In this document: piece by piece, positions 28,099-33,533 of the stretch
How the letters are laid out: every line of letters begins with the position of its first letter
Numbering within the stretch: the stretch's first letter is position 1
Assembly (NCBI GenBank): GCA_012960155.1
Contig: DUBU01000001.1
Coordinates: 57,262-92,987 of the forward strand
Reading direction: 5' to 3'
DNA: 35,726 bases
Origin: Micavibrio sp.
Lineage (GTDB): Bacteria; Pseudomonadota; Alphaproteobacteria; Micavibrionales; Micavibrionaceae
Translations under genes and position numbers: made by a program
The notes under the pieces: generated by a model
Database searches by the model: none
Seen by the model: only the letters and a program-made list of their open reading frames with translations
What the model was told of the DNA's origin: nothing

Positions 28099-28755
28099 AT
28101 GGCGGACGCGCAAAACATTATCTTCCTTGATATTGACGGCCCTGTATTATCACCGCGCTTTCTAATGATGGCGCGCCGCTTCGAAAATAAAGACGCAAAG
28201 TTTCATGGCCTGACCAAGAAGTTTACTGAAATAGCCAAAGATCACTTCAATCTGGCGGACCCCGTCACTGTAATGATGATCACTGATTTGGCACATGAAA
28301 CGAATTCCAAAATTGTAATCTCTTCAATCTGGCGCCTGGGCGGCTATGAACAATTTGTCGAAGATTTCGAGGACTTTGGTTTTGATCGCGACCTGCTGCA
28401 CGAAGACTGGCGCACTAATGGCCAAGTGCTTGAGCGCCGCGAAGATGAGGTGCAGATCTGGCTGGATAGGCATCCTGAGGTGAAACGCTTCGTTACAATT
28501 GATGACGAACCATTGGATTTCGACAGCCATATTCAGGTCTGTGCCGTAAATGGATTTCTCGTCGATAACTACGATCAGGCTTATGAGATTTTGACTGGTG
28601 AGGAAAGCCCGCTTCCGATCAATCTATACAACCATGCGGCTGTGGACTTCTATGGTCCTGAGGCGCTTGTTGAAAATGACGAAAGCTTGAAGCGATGTAA
28701 CCAGCGCCTGGCCGATCGCCGAGCAGCCATCCGTAAGAAATACCAGCCTGATTAA
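28099..28755 (+). CDS. Small HAD-fold protein (HAD_SAK-like)
   Basis: A 218-residue HAD protein. Motif I is F-L-D-I-D-G-P-V-L, with both catalytic Asp present. Motif II lies in I-V-I-S-S-I-W-R and the last acidic motif in F-V-T-I-D-D-E. This I-V-I-S-S-x-W-R form with a W-L-x-x-H helix in between is that of HAD domains linked to Swiss-army-knife-type RNA repair proteins, which stand alone in many bacteria. A phosphatase or nucleic-acid end-processing activity is possible but not proven. It starts 4 bases after the lipoprotein stop and its end overlaps the flbD stop by 4 bases (convergent). Confidence 0.72.
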   Translation: MADAQNIIFLDIDGPVLSPRFLMMARRFENKDAKFHGLTKKFTEIAKDHFNLADPVTVMMITDLAHETNSKIVISSIWRLGGYEQFVEDFEDFGFDRDLLHEDWRTNGQVLERREDEVQIWLDRHPEVKRFVTIDDEPLDFDSHIQVCAVNGFLVDNYDQAYEILTGEESPLPINLYNHAAVDFYGPEALVENDESLKRCNQRLADRRAAIRKKYQPD

Positions 28756-30185
28756 TTCCCGCTACTCGCCGCAGGAATATCAAGCCCTTCATCCTTGTAC
28801 TGATTAAGCTTGTTGCGCAGCGTGCGGATCGATATGCCCAGAATATTGGCAGCGTGTGTACGATTACCCAATGTATGGTCCAGCGTATTCAAAATCATAT
28901 CGCGCTCAACATCGGCAATCGTGCGTCCAATCAGGTTCTCGACGGCTCCCGGGTTTTGTACGCCTTCACCACTTTGTTGTGCTTCGGTCGCAGTCGTTGA
29001 AGGTGCTTTTGCGGTTTTGCCGGCACTTGAAACGCCTGCAGGATCAGGCGCGTTAGTGGCAGTTGGCGCTGCTTGCCCCGGAGCTGTGCTACCTTGAATT
29101 TGAATGGCGTCGGGCTCGACCTCGTCCTTCATCGACATCAGGATCGCGCGGTGCATTGTGTTCTCAAGCTCGCGAATGTTACCGCGCCAGCCATGGCCTT
29201 TCAGCTTTTCCTGTGCTGCTGCTGAAATCTTCTTCTTGGCGATGCCGTTCTGTTCGGCAAACTTATCGCTAAAGAACTGTGCCAGACGCACAATGTCATT
29301 CGGACGTTCGCGCAAAGCGGGTAGGGCTATGTTAACAACATTCAGGCGGAAATAGAGATCCTCGCGGAACTCGCCTTTTTGAACGGATTGCTCCAGATTG
29401 CGGTTGGATGTGGCAATCAAACGCACATCGACTTTAACGGAGTCATTACTGCCAACACGTGTAACTTCGCGCTCTTGAATGACGCGCAGCAGTTTGGCTT
29501 GCAGCGATGGGTGCATCTCTGAAATTTCATCCAGTAGCAACGTGCCTTTATTGGCTTCTTCGAATTTACCGATACGGCGACCTGTCGCTCCGGTAAACGC
29601 GCCTTTTTCGTGACCGAAGAGTTCAGATTCCAGAAGGTTTTCGGGAATGGCTGCACAGTTCACGGCAATGAACGGACCTTCTTTACGTTTTGATTTACGG
29701 TGAATGTAATGCGACATCACCTCTTTACCGGTACCGCTTTCACCTGTGATAAACACGGTGGCTTCAGAAGGAGCAATCTTGTCTGCCAGCTCGACAACGG
29801 ATTTCATCGCCGGATCATCGGCAATCATTGTCTTGCTTTCTTCTGTGACAGCTTGCAGCACAGCCGCGATTAACTCTGCATCAGGTGGCAGCGGCACATA
29901 TTCTTTTGCGCCATCCTGAATAGCTTTTACAGCGGTGCGTGCGTCTGTGCCGATGCCACAGGCCACGACAGGCATATGAATGCGTTCGGTTTCCAGCTGT
30001 TTGATAAAGGCGCCGATATTTTGCTTAACATCCACCATGGCAAGGTCCGCACCTTTACCATTCAGAAGCGCGCCAAGGGCTTGTTCTGTATCTTCACAAT
30101 GTATGACTTTCGCGCCGCGTTGCAAGGCAATTTTACCAGCCGTGCTGATATGGCCTTCAAGTTGTCCGACGATCATTAAGCGCAT
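28752..30185 (-). CDS. flbD: Flagellar sigma-54-dependent activator FlbD
   Basis: A 477-residue protein closely following Caulobacter FlbD. A degenerate receiver (about 1-115; D52 is present but the N-terminal acidic pair and the K-P switch are missing) is followed by an AAA+ domain with Walker A G-E-S-G-T-G-K-E (148-155), the sigma-54 contact loop G-A-F-T-G-A (195-200) and Walker B G-T-L-L-L-D-E (214-220). The Ala/Pro/Ser-rich linker (about 365-420) and the C-terminal Fis-type helix-turn-helix (L-G-N-R-T-H-A-A-N-I-L-G-I-S-I-R-T-L-R-N-K-L) are nearly identical to FlbD's. It turns on late flagellar genes. GGAGGT lies 6 bases before the ATG. In Caulobacter flbD closes the fliF operon; here it is cut off by two opposite-strand genes. 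Confidence 0.95.
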   Translation of the reverse strand: MRLMIVGQLEGHISTAGKIALQRGAKVIHCEDTEQALGALLNGKGADLAMVDVKQNIGAFIKQLETERIHMPVVACGIGTDARTAVKAIQDGAKEYVPLPPDAELIAAVLQAVTEESKTMIADDPAMKSVVELADKIAPSEATVFITGESGTGKEVMSHYIHRKSKRKEGPFIAVNCAAIPENLLESELFGHEKGAFTGATGRRIGKFEEANKGTLLLDEISEMHPSLQAKLLRVIQEREVTRVGSNDSVKVDVRLIATSNRNLEQSVQKGEFREDLYFRLNVVNIALPALRERPNDIVRLAQFFSDKFAEQNGIAKKKISAAAQEKLKGHGWRGNIRELENTMHRAILMSMKDEVEPDAIQIQGSTAPGQAAPTATNAPDPAGVSSAGKTAKAPSTTATEAQQSGEGVQNPGAVENLIGRTIADVERDMILNTLDHTLGNRTHAANILGISIRTLRNKLNQYKDEGLDIPAASSGN

Positions 30186-30257
30186 ATGTGAACCTCCAAA
30201 ATAAAAATATAGTTTAACCCTTACGAAAGGGAAGAAAAAGGGGCTTTTCGATAAAGT

Positions 30258-30285
30258 TTGACGAAATAGGATTTTTACGAATAAT
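30258..30285 (+). promoter_or_regulatory. Promoter candidate for the tandem HxD genes
   Basis: TTGACG (30258-30263), a 16-base spacer and AATAAT (30280-30285) each match the housekeeping consensus in 5 of 6 positions. Transcription would begin near 30292, leaving a short leader with AGGGA (30298-30302) 7 bases before the ATG at 30310. It lies in the 124-base gap divergent from flbD. Confidence 0.5.
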
Positions 30286-30309
30286 GTGTCATTGAACAGG
30301 GACTATATA

Positions 30310-30963
30310 ATGAAAAATCTAGACTACTTGCCGCAGAATTACGATTCTATCAAAGTCGTTGATAGTTGGGACGCATTGCTGTCCGAACCTTTTGACGATG
30401 CTAGCTGCATACTGTTTCCCCGTACATTGTCAGGTGATTTTAATGCTCTTGCCCGCGCGGTCTCGATGCAGCGTAAAGGCTATCGTAAGGATATCCCGCA
30501 GAGCCTGGCGTCAGAGCACCGTTTACTCATGGAGGATATCGAACGTGTCAGGGCGCATTTGATTGCGATCGGGGTTAGCGCGTTTGAGCCAAGTCTTCGC
30601 ATAGAACACCGCGCCCGTTGGAGCTCGTTTTCGAGTGTCGATACGTGGCATGTTGATGGATGTAAGGACCCTGAATTCGGAAGGCTGCTATGCAATTATA
30701 ATGCGCCCACGACACAATGGCTCCGTCAGCAGGATGTGACTTACGCATCATTATCAATGCGCGCTAATGAACGCTTCAATAAAAAGATGTTCGCCAAAAC
30801 CTATTCGTTTGAGCCAGGGGATGTCTGGCGTCAGCGCTCGGCGTCATCACCGGTCAGCGAGCATATGCAAGATCGCGATAAATTATTCGTCCACCGCAGA
30901 CCGCCCGAGGTTAAGTTGCGTCACCGCAATGACCCGCCGCGTATGCTAATGGTAGCGGGGTAA
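30310..30963 (+). CDS. DUF1826-like HxD...H protein, first tandem copy
   Basis: A 217-residue soluble protein. The likely metal-binding residues are H114-V-D116 with a distal H195 and R211 near the C-terminus, the order seen in 2-His-1-carboxylate oxygenases and in DUF1826 proteins. Around them are G-R-L-L-C-N-Y-N-A-P-T-T-Q-W-L-R (about 124-139), F-E-P-G-D-V-W-R and V-H-R-R-P-P, which match the DUF1826 plan (H-x-D, R-L-L-x-x-Y, T-x-W-L, x-x-G-D, H-R-x-P). The substrate is unknown. The ATG at 30310 has AGGGA 7 bases upstream; an upstream GTG at 30286 is rejected. Its paralogue follows after 3 bases. Both sit opposite to the flagellar cluster, between flbD and a methyltransferase gene. Confidence 0.72.
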   Translation: MKNLDYLPQNYDSIKVVDSWDALLSEPFDDASCILFPRTLSGDFNALARAVSMQRKGYRKDIPQSLASEHRLLMEDIERVRAHLIAIGVSAFEPSLRIEHRARWSSFSSVDTWHVDGCKDPEFGRLLCNYNAPTTQWLRQQDVTYASLSMRANERFNKKMFAKTYSFEPGDVWRQRSASSPVSEHMQDRDKLFVHRRPPEVKLRHRNDPPRMLMVAG

Positions 30964-30966
30964 GCC

Positions 30967-31614
30967 ATGGTTAAGCGTCCTGATTATATTCCGGCAAACT
31001 ATCCGAATATTAAAGTGGTTGGCAGCCTGACCGAGCTGTTTAACGCAGAATTCGGCGAGGCTAATTGTATTCTGTTCCCGAGGCCGATAAGTGGTGAGTT
31101 CAATCAGTTGGCCAAACTGCTCAAAAAACACGGTACTGAAAAATTATATGATGAAGGGTTCGTCCCGCAATTTTATCGGGCCGAGCGCAGGCTTATCATT
31201 GATGATATGAAAGCCATTCGCCGCGAGCTACAAGAACGCGGTGTGAATACAGGCAGTGCGCTCCGCGTGGAAACGTCTGAAGGTTGGATAGAAAGCCAGT
31301 CTCCATGCGCATATCACGTTGATGGGTGCAGTAAACCGGAAATCGGGCGTATTTTATGCAGTTATAATGAGCCTGTAACGGAGTGGCTGCGTAACGAGGA
31401 TGCTGTCAATGTGCCGCAAGAGCGGATTCGTGATTTGTATAAAGCCAAAGAAGGCGCAACGATTCAGCGCTTCCGCCCTGGCGATATTTTTCGCATCAAA
31501 TCAATGCTCGGCAGGGAGATGACATCGAATGGTGAGGGGTGTTTCATTCATCGCGCGCCTGAGCCGACTGAAGAGACCAAACATTTGGTAAGGATGCTGC
31601 TAGTCGCTGGCTAA
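30967..31614 (+). CDS. DUF1826-like HxD...H protein, second tandem copy
   Basis: A 215-residue paralogue of the previous gene. Shared with it are I-K-V-V at the start, C-I-L-F-P-R, S-G-E/D-F-N, H-V-D-G-C (H117, D119), G-R-I-L-C-S-Y-N-E-P-V-T-E-W-L-R, F-R-P-G-D-I-F-R, F-I-H-R-A-P-E (H195) and the same ending R-M-L-L-V-A-G (R209). The region between residues about 40 and 110 has diverged freely while the predicted metal-site residues are all kept, which argues both are active. A Cys directly follows H-V-D-G in both copies. The stop overlaps the convergent methyltransferase stop by 4 bases. The pair is cotranscribed from the flbD-facing promoter. Confidence 0.72.
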   Translation: MVKRPDYIPANYPNIKVVGSLTELFNAEFGEANCILFPRPISGEFNQLAKLLKKHGTEKLYDEGFVPQFYRAERRLIIDDMKAIRRELQERGVNTGSALRVETSEGWIESQSPCAYHVDGCSKPEIGRILCSYNEPVTEWLRNEDAVNVPQERIRDLYKAKEGATIQRFRPGDIFRIKSMLGREMTSNGEGCFIHRAPEPTEETKHLVRMLLVAG

Positions 31615-32270
31615 GCTTTCTTGAACACAAGGCAGTGAGTGTGTTTGTAATCAGCAGCAGGTGGCGTATCCCACGCCACAATAATCTCTGATTTAAGATC
31701 AAAGCTTTTGCTGACAGCGTCGGCCATATCGCGCACAAGCGGTGTATAACGATGGCCGATAAGCAGATTGTCGACATGAACAATTAAAGTGGCGCCTTTC
31801 TTCATCAAGGGCGGCAGCTTCTTGAAGATGGCAGTCATACGCTTGAGGTAAACATCATACCCTGCATGTTTCGGGTCACCGTTATATAACGGATTCCATT
31901 TATGGCTTGCGGCCATGAAGGGGGGCGATGTCAGTACCAGATCAAATTTAGGGAAGTCGTGCTTATCCATTTTGAACGCGTCATCATGGCGCATCGCTGT
32001 CCAGTTTTCCATTTGTGCGGCAACCCATTCGTAACGATCGCGGTCAGCCTCGATGCCATAAGGAGCACGTCCCAGCTTCTCCGCTTCGAATAATGTAGTG
32101 CCAAGCCCTGCGAACGGGTCAAAAACCTTATCGCCTTTCTTGCTGTAATGCTTGATGAAGTGACGCACCAGAGTTTCAGGGTATTTGTCTTCATTAGTCG
32201 TGAAGTCAGGGGCTGCACGCTCCTGCTTGTAGGGTAATGTCACAAATAGGGGATGGGGTGCGTTGGCCAT
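31611..32270 (-). CDS. Orphan DNA methyltransferase (N4-cytosine/N6-adenine type)
   Basis: A 219-residue methyltransferase. The SAM-binding motif D-P-F-A-G-L-G-T-T (51-59) comes first, then the catalytic T-S-P-P-F (114-118). T-S-P-P is typical of amino-methyltransferases, particularly N4-cytosine enzymes. The C-terminal half has no evident long target-recognition domain, so it is compact. No restriction partner is nearby. It is not CcrM: it lacks the N-terminal D-P-P-Y arrangement and the C-terminal extension of that enzyme. Its start codon overlaps the motA stop by one base (TAATG), so translation is coupled with a flagellar stator gene, which is unusual. RNA methylation cannot be ruled out. 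Confidence 0.8.
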   Translation of the reverse strand: MANAPHPLFVTLPYKQERAAPDFTTNEDKYPETLVRHFIKHYSKKGDKVFDPFAGLGTTLFEAEKLGRAPYGIEADRDRYEWVAAQMENWTAMRHDDAFKMDKHDFPKFDLVLTSPPFMAASHKWNPLYNGDPKHAGYDVYLKRMTAIFKKLPPLMKKGATLIVHVDNLLIGHRYTPLVRDMADAVSKSFDLKSEIIVAWDTPPAADYKHTHCLVFKKA

Positions 32271-33112
32271 TATTCGAAGTAACGGATGCGATGCTCTGGC
32301 GGTAATTCGCTGTTCAGAAGCATTTCTAGACGGCGCGGATTTTCCTGGCGGGCAATTGAGCCCATCGCAGTCAGGATCAGATTTTTAATCATCGTTTCAT
32401 CACCTGAGTTGCGCTCCAGCTTGGCTGCCAGAGGACCAAGAATAACTGTGCCCATGATCGCGCCATAGAATGTCGTCAACAAGGCGACGGCCATAGCAGG
32501 GCCGATAGAAGACGGATCATCCAGCTGCGCTAGCATTTGAACCAGACCAACCAGCGTGCCGATCAAACCCATAGCAGGGGCAACTTCGGAAGCGCGGCGC
32601 AGGATGCTGGCAGAGCGTCTGTGACGTTCTGCTAGGGCATCAACTTCTTGTCCAAGAACGCGGTCAATATCTTCGCCGTTATAACCATCTGTGACCAGCT
32701 GTACGGCGCGGAATAGAAACGGATCTTTTTTTAGCTCACCTTCTGCGGCAGAAAGAGACAGCAGACCTTTTTTGCGAGCGACAGAGGCAATATCCATCAG
32801 CTGTATCGCCAGATCAGAAGGCGCACGGTAGCGACGGATCATCGTGTTTCCTAGGATGCCGGGCACGTGTTTGATTTCAGCCCAGGTGTAGGAAACAGCC
32901 GTCGCTGCCATCGTGCCGAGAACCACAATCAAAAATGACGGGCCGTTCAAGAAGTTGGCGTTACTGCTGCCCATAGCAATCGCAGCAATGATCAAGCCAA
33001 CTGCAGAGATAAGTCCCAAAATCGTTGATAGATCAGCACTCACGCGTGGCGGTGCTACGCGAATGCCCGGATCAGCGGCGGCTTGTTGATTCTGTGCGGC
33101 GTCAGTTGTCAT
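32270..33112 (-). CDS. motA: Flagellar stator protein MotA (PomA-like)
   Basis: A 280-residue stator subunit with four transmembrane helices (about 28-48, 58-76, 178-198, 205-226) and a cytoplasmic loop between helices 2 and 3 that touches FliG. A-P-A-M-G-L-I-G-T-L-V-G-L-V-Q-M-L and D-D-P-S-S-I-G-P-A-M-A-V-A-L-L-T-T are the most conserved parts and are closer to PomA/MotP-type than to E. coli MotA, which could mean sodium drive; this cannot be decided from MotA alone. motB, the ion-channel partner, is absent from the window. It follows fliN by 19 bases and overlaps the methyltransferase start by one base. Confidence 0.93.
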   Translation of the reverse strand: MTTDAAQNQQAAADPGIRVAPPRVSADLSTILGLISAVGLIIAAIAMGSSNANFLNGPSFLIVVLGTMAATAVSYTWAEIKHVPGILGNTMIRRYRAPSDLAIQLMDIASVARKKGLLSLSAAEGELKKDPFLFRAVQLVTDGYNGEDIDRVLGQEVDALAERHRRSASILRRASEVAPAMGLIGTLVGLVQMLAQLDDPSSIGPAMAVALLTTFYGAIMGTVILGPLAAKLERNSGDETMIKNLILTAMGSIARQENPRRLEMLLNSELPPEHRIRYFE

Positions 33113-33131: not shown

Positions 33132-33533
33132 TTAGCTGCGGTCAGATTTAACAATCTCTGTCATTGTAACGCCCAGCTTGTCTTCCACGACAACAACTTC
33201 GCCGCGGGCAACCAGACGGTTATTCACATAGATATCAATCGCTTCACCGACTTTACGATCCAGTTCCACAACCGCACCACGACCAAGTTTCAGCAATTGG
33301 CTAACCTGCATGGTAGAGCGCCCCAATACAGCCGAAATTTGCACAGGGATATCATAAATAGCAGTCACATCGCCGGCCATAGGCTCGCCGATTTCAAATT
33401 CGTGGCCGTTATCGGCGCTAAAGCCGCTTTCCTCGATCTCGTCAAGGTTCATGCCACCTTTATCGCCCATGATGTTATCAATCTCGTCTTGCGAGGCTAG
33501 GTTGTCATCTTGGTTTTGATCGTCATCGCTCAT
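33132..33533 (-). CDS. fliN: Flagellar switch protein FliN
   Basis: A 133-residue C-ring protein. A roughly 50-residue acidic Asp/Asn/Glu-rich N-terminus precedes the SpoA/FliN domain (about 57-130): I-P-V-Q-I-S-A-V-L-G-R-S-T-M-x-V-S-Q-L-L-K-L-G-R-G-A-V-V-E-L-D, then V-G-E-x-I-D-I-Y-V-N-N-R-L-V-A-R-G-E-V-V-V-V-E-D-K-L-G-V. This is a clear FliN match. It controls motor direction together with FliG and FliM and serves as a docking site for FliH. The ATG overlaps the fliH stop by 4 bases. Confidence 0.95.
   Translation of the reverse strand: MSDDDQNQDDNLASQDEIDNIMGDKGGMNLDEIEESGFSADNGHEFEIGEPMAGDVTAIYDIPVQISAVLGRSTMQVSQLLKLGRGAVVELDRKVGEAIDIYVNNRLVARGEVVVVEDKLGVTMTEIVKSDRS

Follow-up and report, generated by a model that had tools for sequence, protein, structure and literature searches.

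Two adjacent genes of a Micavibrio sp. encode paralogous proteins, P0001 and P0002, which are probably Fe(II)/2-oxoglutarate (2OG)-dependent oxygenases, as judged from structure models and from the active-site motif. They lie between motA and flbD in the window, i.e., the whole stretch of 35,726 nucleotides that was analysed (contig DUBU01000001.1), at a junction that is variable among relatives. We tentatively favor, at close to an even call, a reading in which the pair are accessory oxygenases housed in this variable flagellar slot, with action on a motility-linked protein as their likeliest role. The genes, their residues, their branch in the family and their synteny are direct observations, and a flagellar or motility substrate for the predicted enzymes would be plausible.

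The Gene Pair and Its Surroundings

The two adjacent open reading frames of 217 and 215 residues described in an earlier note on this DNA were confirmed (Table 1), as was the presence of H-x-D, a distal His and a C-terminal Arg in both. The proteins share the ending RML(M/L)VAG and have diverged elsewhere, as had been claimed, with 38% identity overall. They are tandem paralogues that probably originated from a duplication within this lineage. The ATG of P0002 is located 3 bases downstream of the P0001 stop codon, and the pair is therefore read as a single transcription unit. The G+C content of the two genes (51.1 and 48.9%) compares with 48–55% in the other 12 genes measured; a foreign composition was thus rejected, the pair resembling its neighbors in both G+C and GC3.

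Table 1. Features of the motA-flbD region, with positions counted from the first nucleotide of the window.
Feature	Position	Strand	Basis
HAD_SAK_2 domain protein, downstream of flbD and convergent with it	28099–28755	+	Pfam PF18143, 53.7 bits
flbD, sigma-54-dependent flagellar regulator, divergent neighbor of the pair	28752–30185	-	NCBIfam FlbD NF050807, 710 bits, below the cut-off of 750
Sigma-70-like promoter, TTGACG-N16-AATAAT, 5' of the pair in the flbD-P0001 intergenic region	30258–30285	+	Consensus match only, 10/12 positions
P0001, 217 aa, divergent DUF1826-like protein, predicted Fe(II)/2OG oxygenase (H114, D116, Y130, H195, R211)	30310–30963	+	ORF, Pfam, model, alignment
P0002, 215 aa, tandem paralogue of P0001 (H117, D119, Y133, H195, R209)	30967–31614	+	ORF, Pfam, model, alignment
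Small N6_N4_Mtase (PF01555) methyltransferase, convergent with P0002	31611–32270	-	Pfam; overlaps P0002 by 4 bases and motA by 1 base
motA/pomA-type stator gene, usual neighbor of flbD among relatives	32270–33112	-	Profile matches and junctions of relatives
fliN	33132–33533	-	Pfam

The pair stands on the strand opposite to the flagellar cluster, in agreement with the earlier note, since flbD, the methyltransferase gene, motA and fliN are all on the minus strand. The far flank comprises, in order, genes for the PF01555 methyltransferase, MotA, FliN, FliH, FliG and FliF, all on the minus strand, the last three names being our own assignments. Although motA stands between fliN and flbD here, as the earlier note states, it is not an insertion in this lineage, since it adjoins flbD directly in 45 of 86 readable junctions of relatives. 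Close matches of the methyltransferase (52–59%) occur in four of 11 genomes searched (G001, G002, G010, and G023), and the G010 copy sits outside the flagellar cluster.

A promoter of its own had also been proposed for the pair, and a sigma-70-like consensus match is indeed found upstream. The scan of this region gave five matches where 2.2 were expected, this one being the sole match on the plus strand, with a moderate chance score of 0.057 relative to mononucleotide shuffles. A sigma-70 promoter common to the flbD-linked homologues of relatives was tried and rejected, because a site with two or fewer mismatches was present in only four of 15 upstream regions and is thus not conserved by that test, which used mononucleotide shuffles and start codons of our own choice. 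Sigma-54 control of these homologues was likewise rejected, with a single loose GG-N10-GC match across the 15 regions.

Membership in the DUF1826 Superfamily

Within the DUF1826 superfamily, the pair falls in a branch found mostly in relatives of Micavibrio. Both proteins had been called DUF1826-like; by the Pfam profile (PF08856, gathering cut-off 22 bits) this stands for P0002 at 27 bits, but P0001 remains below the cut-off at 20.9 bits. Neither has a match in the NCBIfam profile search, and two flbD-linked homologues (L119 and L040) have no Pfam match at E ≤ 0.1. The proposed comparison with 2OG families gave no match for P0001 or P0002 in sequence-profile searches, and a sequence homology to a solved 2OG enzyme was sought without success.

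The core FHxD...R..TY..TEW...GD...HRSP...RL of classical PF08856 proteins, for example PA5534 of Pseudomonas aeruginosa, is also present in the pair, and the H, D, H, and R positions are occupied in all 10 classical rows of the alignment as well as in both window proteins. The branch of the pair differs from classical DUF1826 in having an N-terminal consensus segment, Y..IKVV.SL...PR.L.GDFN. In a 45-row tree it is separated from the 10 classical rows with 100/100 support, and P0001 and P0002 are sisters (76/97, not starred). The tree holds 10 of 16 phylum-level DUF1826 loci; L122, L124, L126, L127, and L134 were left out because ORF picking took another frame, and L132 was also omitted. From L048, 100 N-terminal residues were trimmed, L076–L079 are absent from A3, and L077 and L079 are absent from the tree.

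The branch also includes rows from Verrucomicrobia and Rhodospirillales. Two from records labeled Verrucomicrobia (L117 and L120) and one from a record labeled Rhodospirillales (L118) lie outside the Micavibrio family and form one clade with L048 and L051, a grouping suggestive of interphylum transfer or of mis-binned contigs.

Predicted Active Site and Fold

Of 45 aligned homologues, 44 conserve H-x-D with the distal His, 43 have Arg or Lys where the window proteins carry their C-terminal Arg, and 43 have Tyr at position 133. The pattern of the Fe(II)/2OG superfamily, an HxD/E...H triad followed by a downstream Arg or Lys, is complete in both window proteins. The one exception to the triad is the flbD-linked copy of G049 (L078), which has NxE...D...N instead of HxD...H...R and has lost all three metal residues; by its sequence it may be a pseudo-enzyme or a decaying copy. 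The flbD-linked copy of G136 has lost the Arg, and that of G051 is short (172 aa) with a gap at position 80.

The prolyl hydroxylase PHD2 binds its metal by His313, Asp315, and His374, and holds the C5 carboxylate of 2OG by Arg383 and Tyr329, according to an excerpt of PMC8359944. The spacing from Asp to Tyr is 14 in P0001, in P0002 and in PHD2 (Asp315–Tyr329). In the 11 PHD2 rows obtained with VIA-align, the last model residue (215 or 217) is paired with PHD2 residue 389 in 10 and with residue 390 in one, so R209 and R211 would fall on Arg383, provided that no gap interrupts the last six positions. This spacing and the register of the Arg in the models are compatible with 2OG binding, and the predicted metal residues may cluster in space, as the earlier note had proposed to check.

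AlphaFold models built from a 14-row alignment reached pLDDT 85.5 and pTM 0.85 for P0002, and 82.8 and 0.84 for P0001, with less confidence just before H-x-D (63 and 59 at residues 101–110). Oxygenases of the 2OG/Fe(II) superfamily account for 49 (P0002) and 47 (P0001) of the 50 VIA-align matches listed for each, the rest being acireductone dioxygenases; these classes were read from titles, and the lists contain the same few enzymes many times over. Such a list would be in keeping with a double-stranded beta-helix fold. The best Z among the matches listed is a modest 8.4 for P0002 and 8.2 for P0001, both to OkaE, in a range near 8 where VIA-align warns of common arrangements. KdoO, a Kdo hydroxylase, is also among the top structural matches (Z 7.2 for P0002 and 8.2 for P0001), but OkaE, related 2OG oxygenases and KdoO share only 8–16% identity with the pair. 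The substrates of these enzymes are small molecules or lipid A sugars. Prolyl hydroxylases align with the P0002 model as well, with Z 8.2 to P4H of P. putida (PDB 4j25) and 7.6 to PHD2, at about 9% identity and with a gap between Asp119 and His195 of 76 residues as compared to 59 in PHD2. Foldseek found no match of the P0002 model at E ≤ 0.001; its best E was 0.0095, TM-scores did not exceed 0.38 among the matches listed, and five of the 50 listed rows were other folds or families. The oxygenase-type activity proposed in the earlier note thus gains from the models matching 2OG/Fe(II) oxygenases and from the conserved H-x-D...H...R, but the structural scores are modest.

Distribution and Position in Relatives

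A profile of 15 homologues was searched against 104 genomes of the family. Homologues were found in 26 and no match in 78, among them G053, while flbD was found in 99, including all 26 carriers, so the homologue is not a regular gene of flagellated members. A profile match of G004 at the fliH position (E 0.00088) was taken as false. The homologue adjoins flbD and diverges from it in 15 of the 26 carriers (G000, which is the genome of the window, G001, G008, G045, G049, G051, G055, G056, G103, G106, G122, G123, G124, G130, and G136). In the other 11 it was not seen beside flbD: nine have it elsewhere with a readable junction, and in two (G104 and G105) the contig stops within the junction. Extra copies at other places were found in G045 and G106. 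Named genomes, when scanned, yielded 12 loci, eight of them between motA and flbD, which are in genomes already among the 15 and so add names, not counts. Adjacent tandem copies occur in five carriers (G000, G044, G133, G104 twice, and G106 with one copy short), which is compatible with a paired function and would leave room for the heterodimer suggested in the earlier note. No common neighbor was found among 20 proteins at eight loci away from flbD.

Of the 99 flbD-bearing genomes, 97 had their junction fetched (G058 and G104, with flbD cut at a contig end, were left out), and 86 of these junctions were classed, ORFs under 120 aa being ignored in the count; among the 11 others, G024, G035, and G137 show fliG or fliH with neither motA nor fliN called. 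The homologue is present at 15 of the 86 junctions; flbD is joined directly at 51, to motA at 45 and to fliN with no motA called at six; and other genes lie at 20. Because of these direct joins and other genes, the motA-flbD junction is a variable slot. The homologue family is its commonest guest, and is divergent from flbD in all 15 cases. The link to this locus, which the earlier note had suggested as a check, is real: the homologue stands divergent beside flbD in 15 of the 26 carriers, although motA or fliN joins flbD directly at 51 of the classed junctions.

The linked copies of the window genome and of G001, of the same genus, are at best about 33% identical, as compared to 82% for motA. 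In two other genera, linked copies and motA have similar identities (79 vs. 84% for G008/G103, and 92 vs. 89% for G123/G124). The linked copies may have reached the flbD slot once or more than once, as their label changes four times on the tree but a single clade is not rejected by an AU test (p 0.29).

Alternative Explanations

The main rival of a motility-linked role keeps the same chemistry and drops the flagellar function. The junction would be merely a permissive slot for accessory genes, whose cargo may be exchanged through homologous recombination between the conserved flanks of flagellar genes, and the Fe(II)/2OG oxygenases found there would act on a non-flagellar substrate such as a small molecule, a cell-surface component or an unrelated protein. 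This is a real possibility, if a doubtful one. It agrees with the 20 junctions that carry other genes and no homologue, with the nine carriers that have the homologue elsewhere and a readable junction (two more junctions being cut), with the eight unlinked loci that share no neighbor, and with the low identity at the same position in G000 and G001; on the other hand, no other family recurs at the junction as often, orientation relative to flbD is divergent throughout, and linked copies in two other genera are about as conserved as motA. A dedicated flagellar role has counts against it, namely the 78 genomes without a homologue, the 11 carriers in which none was seen beside flbD and the unrelated genes at the 20 junctions.

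It is unlikely that the proteins are not oxygenases at all, being instead metal-binding proteins of zinc homeostasis or having some other activity, as may be the case for classical DUF1826 proteins beside COG0523 GTPases in Zur regulons. A phylum-wide search gave matches in 17 of 398 genomes, 16 besides that of the window, and at these 16 loci outside the family a COG0523-like GTPase is present within 1.5 kb in 10 and a Zur-like regulator in three, by our own reading of the ORF sequences. Published excerpts list PA5534 together with zigA in a set of zinc-response genes that N-acetylcysteine alters in P. aeruginosa (PMC9431628), name DUF1826 in a figure legend on COG0523 and Zur (PMC2770081), and discuss FTN_1758 of Francisella with Zur, with the domain found in predicted succinylglutamate desuccinylases (PMC5786701); in these excerpts DUF1826 appears in zinc and Zur settings, with no established function and no description as an oxygenase. 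The window pair differs in its separate branch, in having flagellar instead of zinc-regulon neighbors, and in that the cobW-type matches of its genome are only on other contigs. No Zur-box-like site was found within 29000–33000, and six matches in the window compare with 8.3 expected. Both the structural matches and the conservation of Arg and Tyr would suit 2OG binding better than a plain metal store, and Zur control by itself would not exclude an oxygenase. It is very improbable that the pair has no present function, whether as a decaying remnant or as cargo carried by a phage. The degenerate copy of G049, the short one of G051 and the patchy distribution would fit such a fate, but the two window genes are intact in both length and motif, and their G+C content is like that of their neighbors. 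A phage or plasmid origin was rejected, since tblastn of P0002 against 50,697 phage and 72,556 plasmid records gave no match; viral contigs, scanned twice (with P0002 and with A2), also held no relative.

Proposed Function and Its Significance

In the favored reading, that of accessory oxygenases with a motility-linked substrate, H-x-D and the distal His would hold Fe(II) in each protein, and the C-terminal Arg together with the Tyr 14 residues past the Asp would hold the carboxylate of 2OG. The enzyme would then hydroxylate a substrate, most likely a protein. The pair would form an accessory module placed in the variable slot between motA and flbD, with its own promoter and back to back with flbD, and its function would be tied to the flagellar program, as the repeated placement beside flbD suggests. 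Counting against this reading are, besides the modest structural scores and the variable slot, the residues lost from the flbD-linked copies of G049 and G136 and a search for a common flagellar promoter that found none.

A more specific version, in which the pair are oxygen- and iron-responsive protein hydroxylases whose covalent modification of FlbD, of its partner or of a motor protein times the building or the shutdown of the flagellum in these bacteria of a predatory lineage, is quite improbable. If true, it would give PHD-type signaling a counterpart in prokaryotes, encoded back to back with the target regulator. How FliX stimulates FlbD is described as an open question in an excerpt of PMC3930126, where covalent modification is suggested. 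The repeated placement at the flbD side in Micavibrio relatives touches on this question and offers a concrete setting for substrate hunting; a literature search on 2OG hydroxylases and flagellin gave nothing usable among the matches listed. The link to 2OG/Fe(II) oxygenases by fold and motif would also give all DUF1826 proteins, including the zinc-regulon members of Pseudomonas, a testable chemistry.

The other cargo at the 20 junctions includes alpha/beta-hydrolase-like proteins in five (by our own reading), a methyltransferase alone in two, a SET protein in one, and others. SET-domain proteins (PF00856, about 57–60 bits) were seen at the junction of G055 (L180:3126-3557, minus strand), beside a DUF1826-like gene, and of G026 (L200:3574-4083, minus strand), with no such gene. 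Together, the SET and methyltransferase genes are suggestive of protein- or nucleic acid-modifying enzymes as a theme at this junction.
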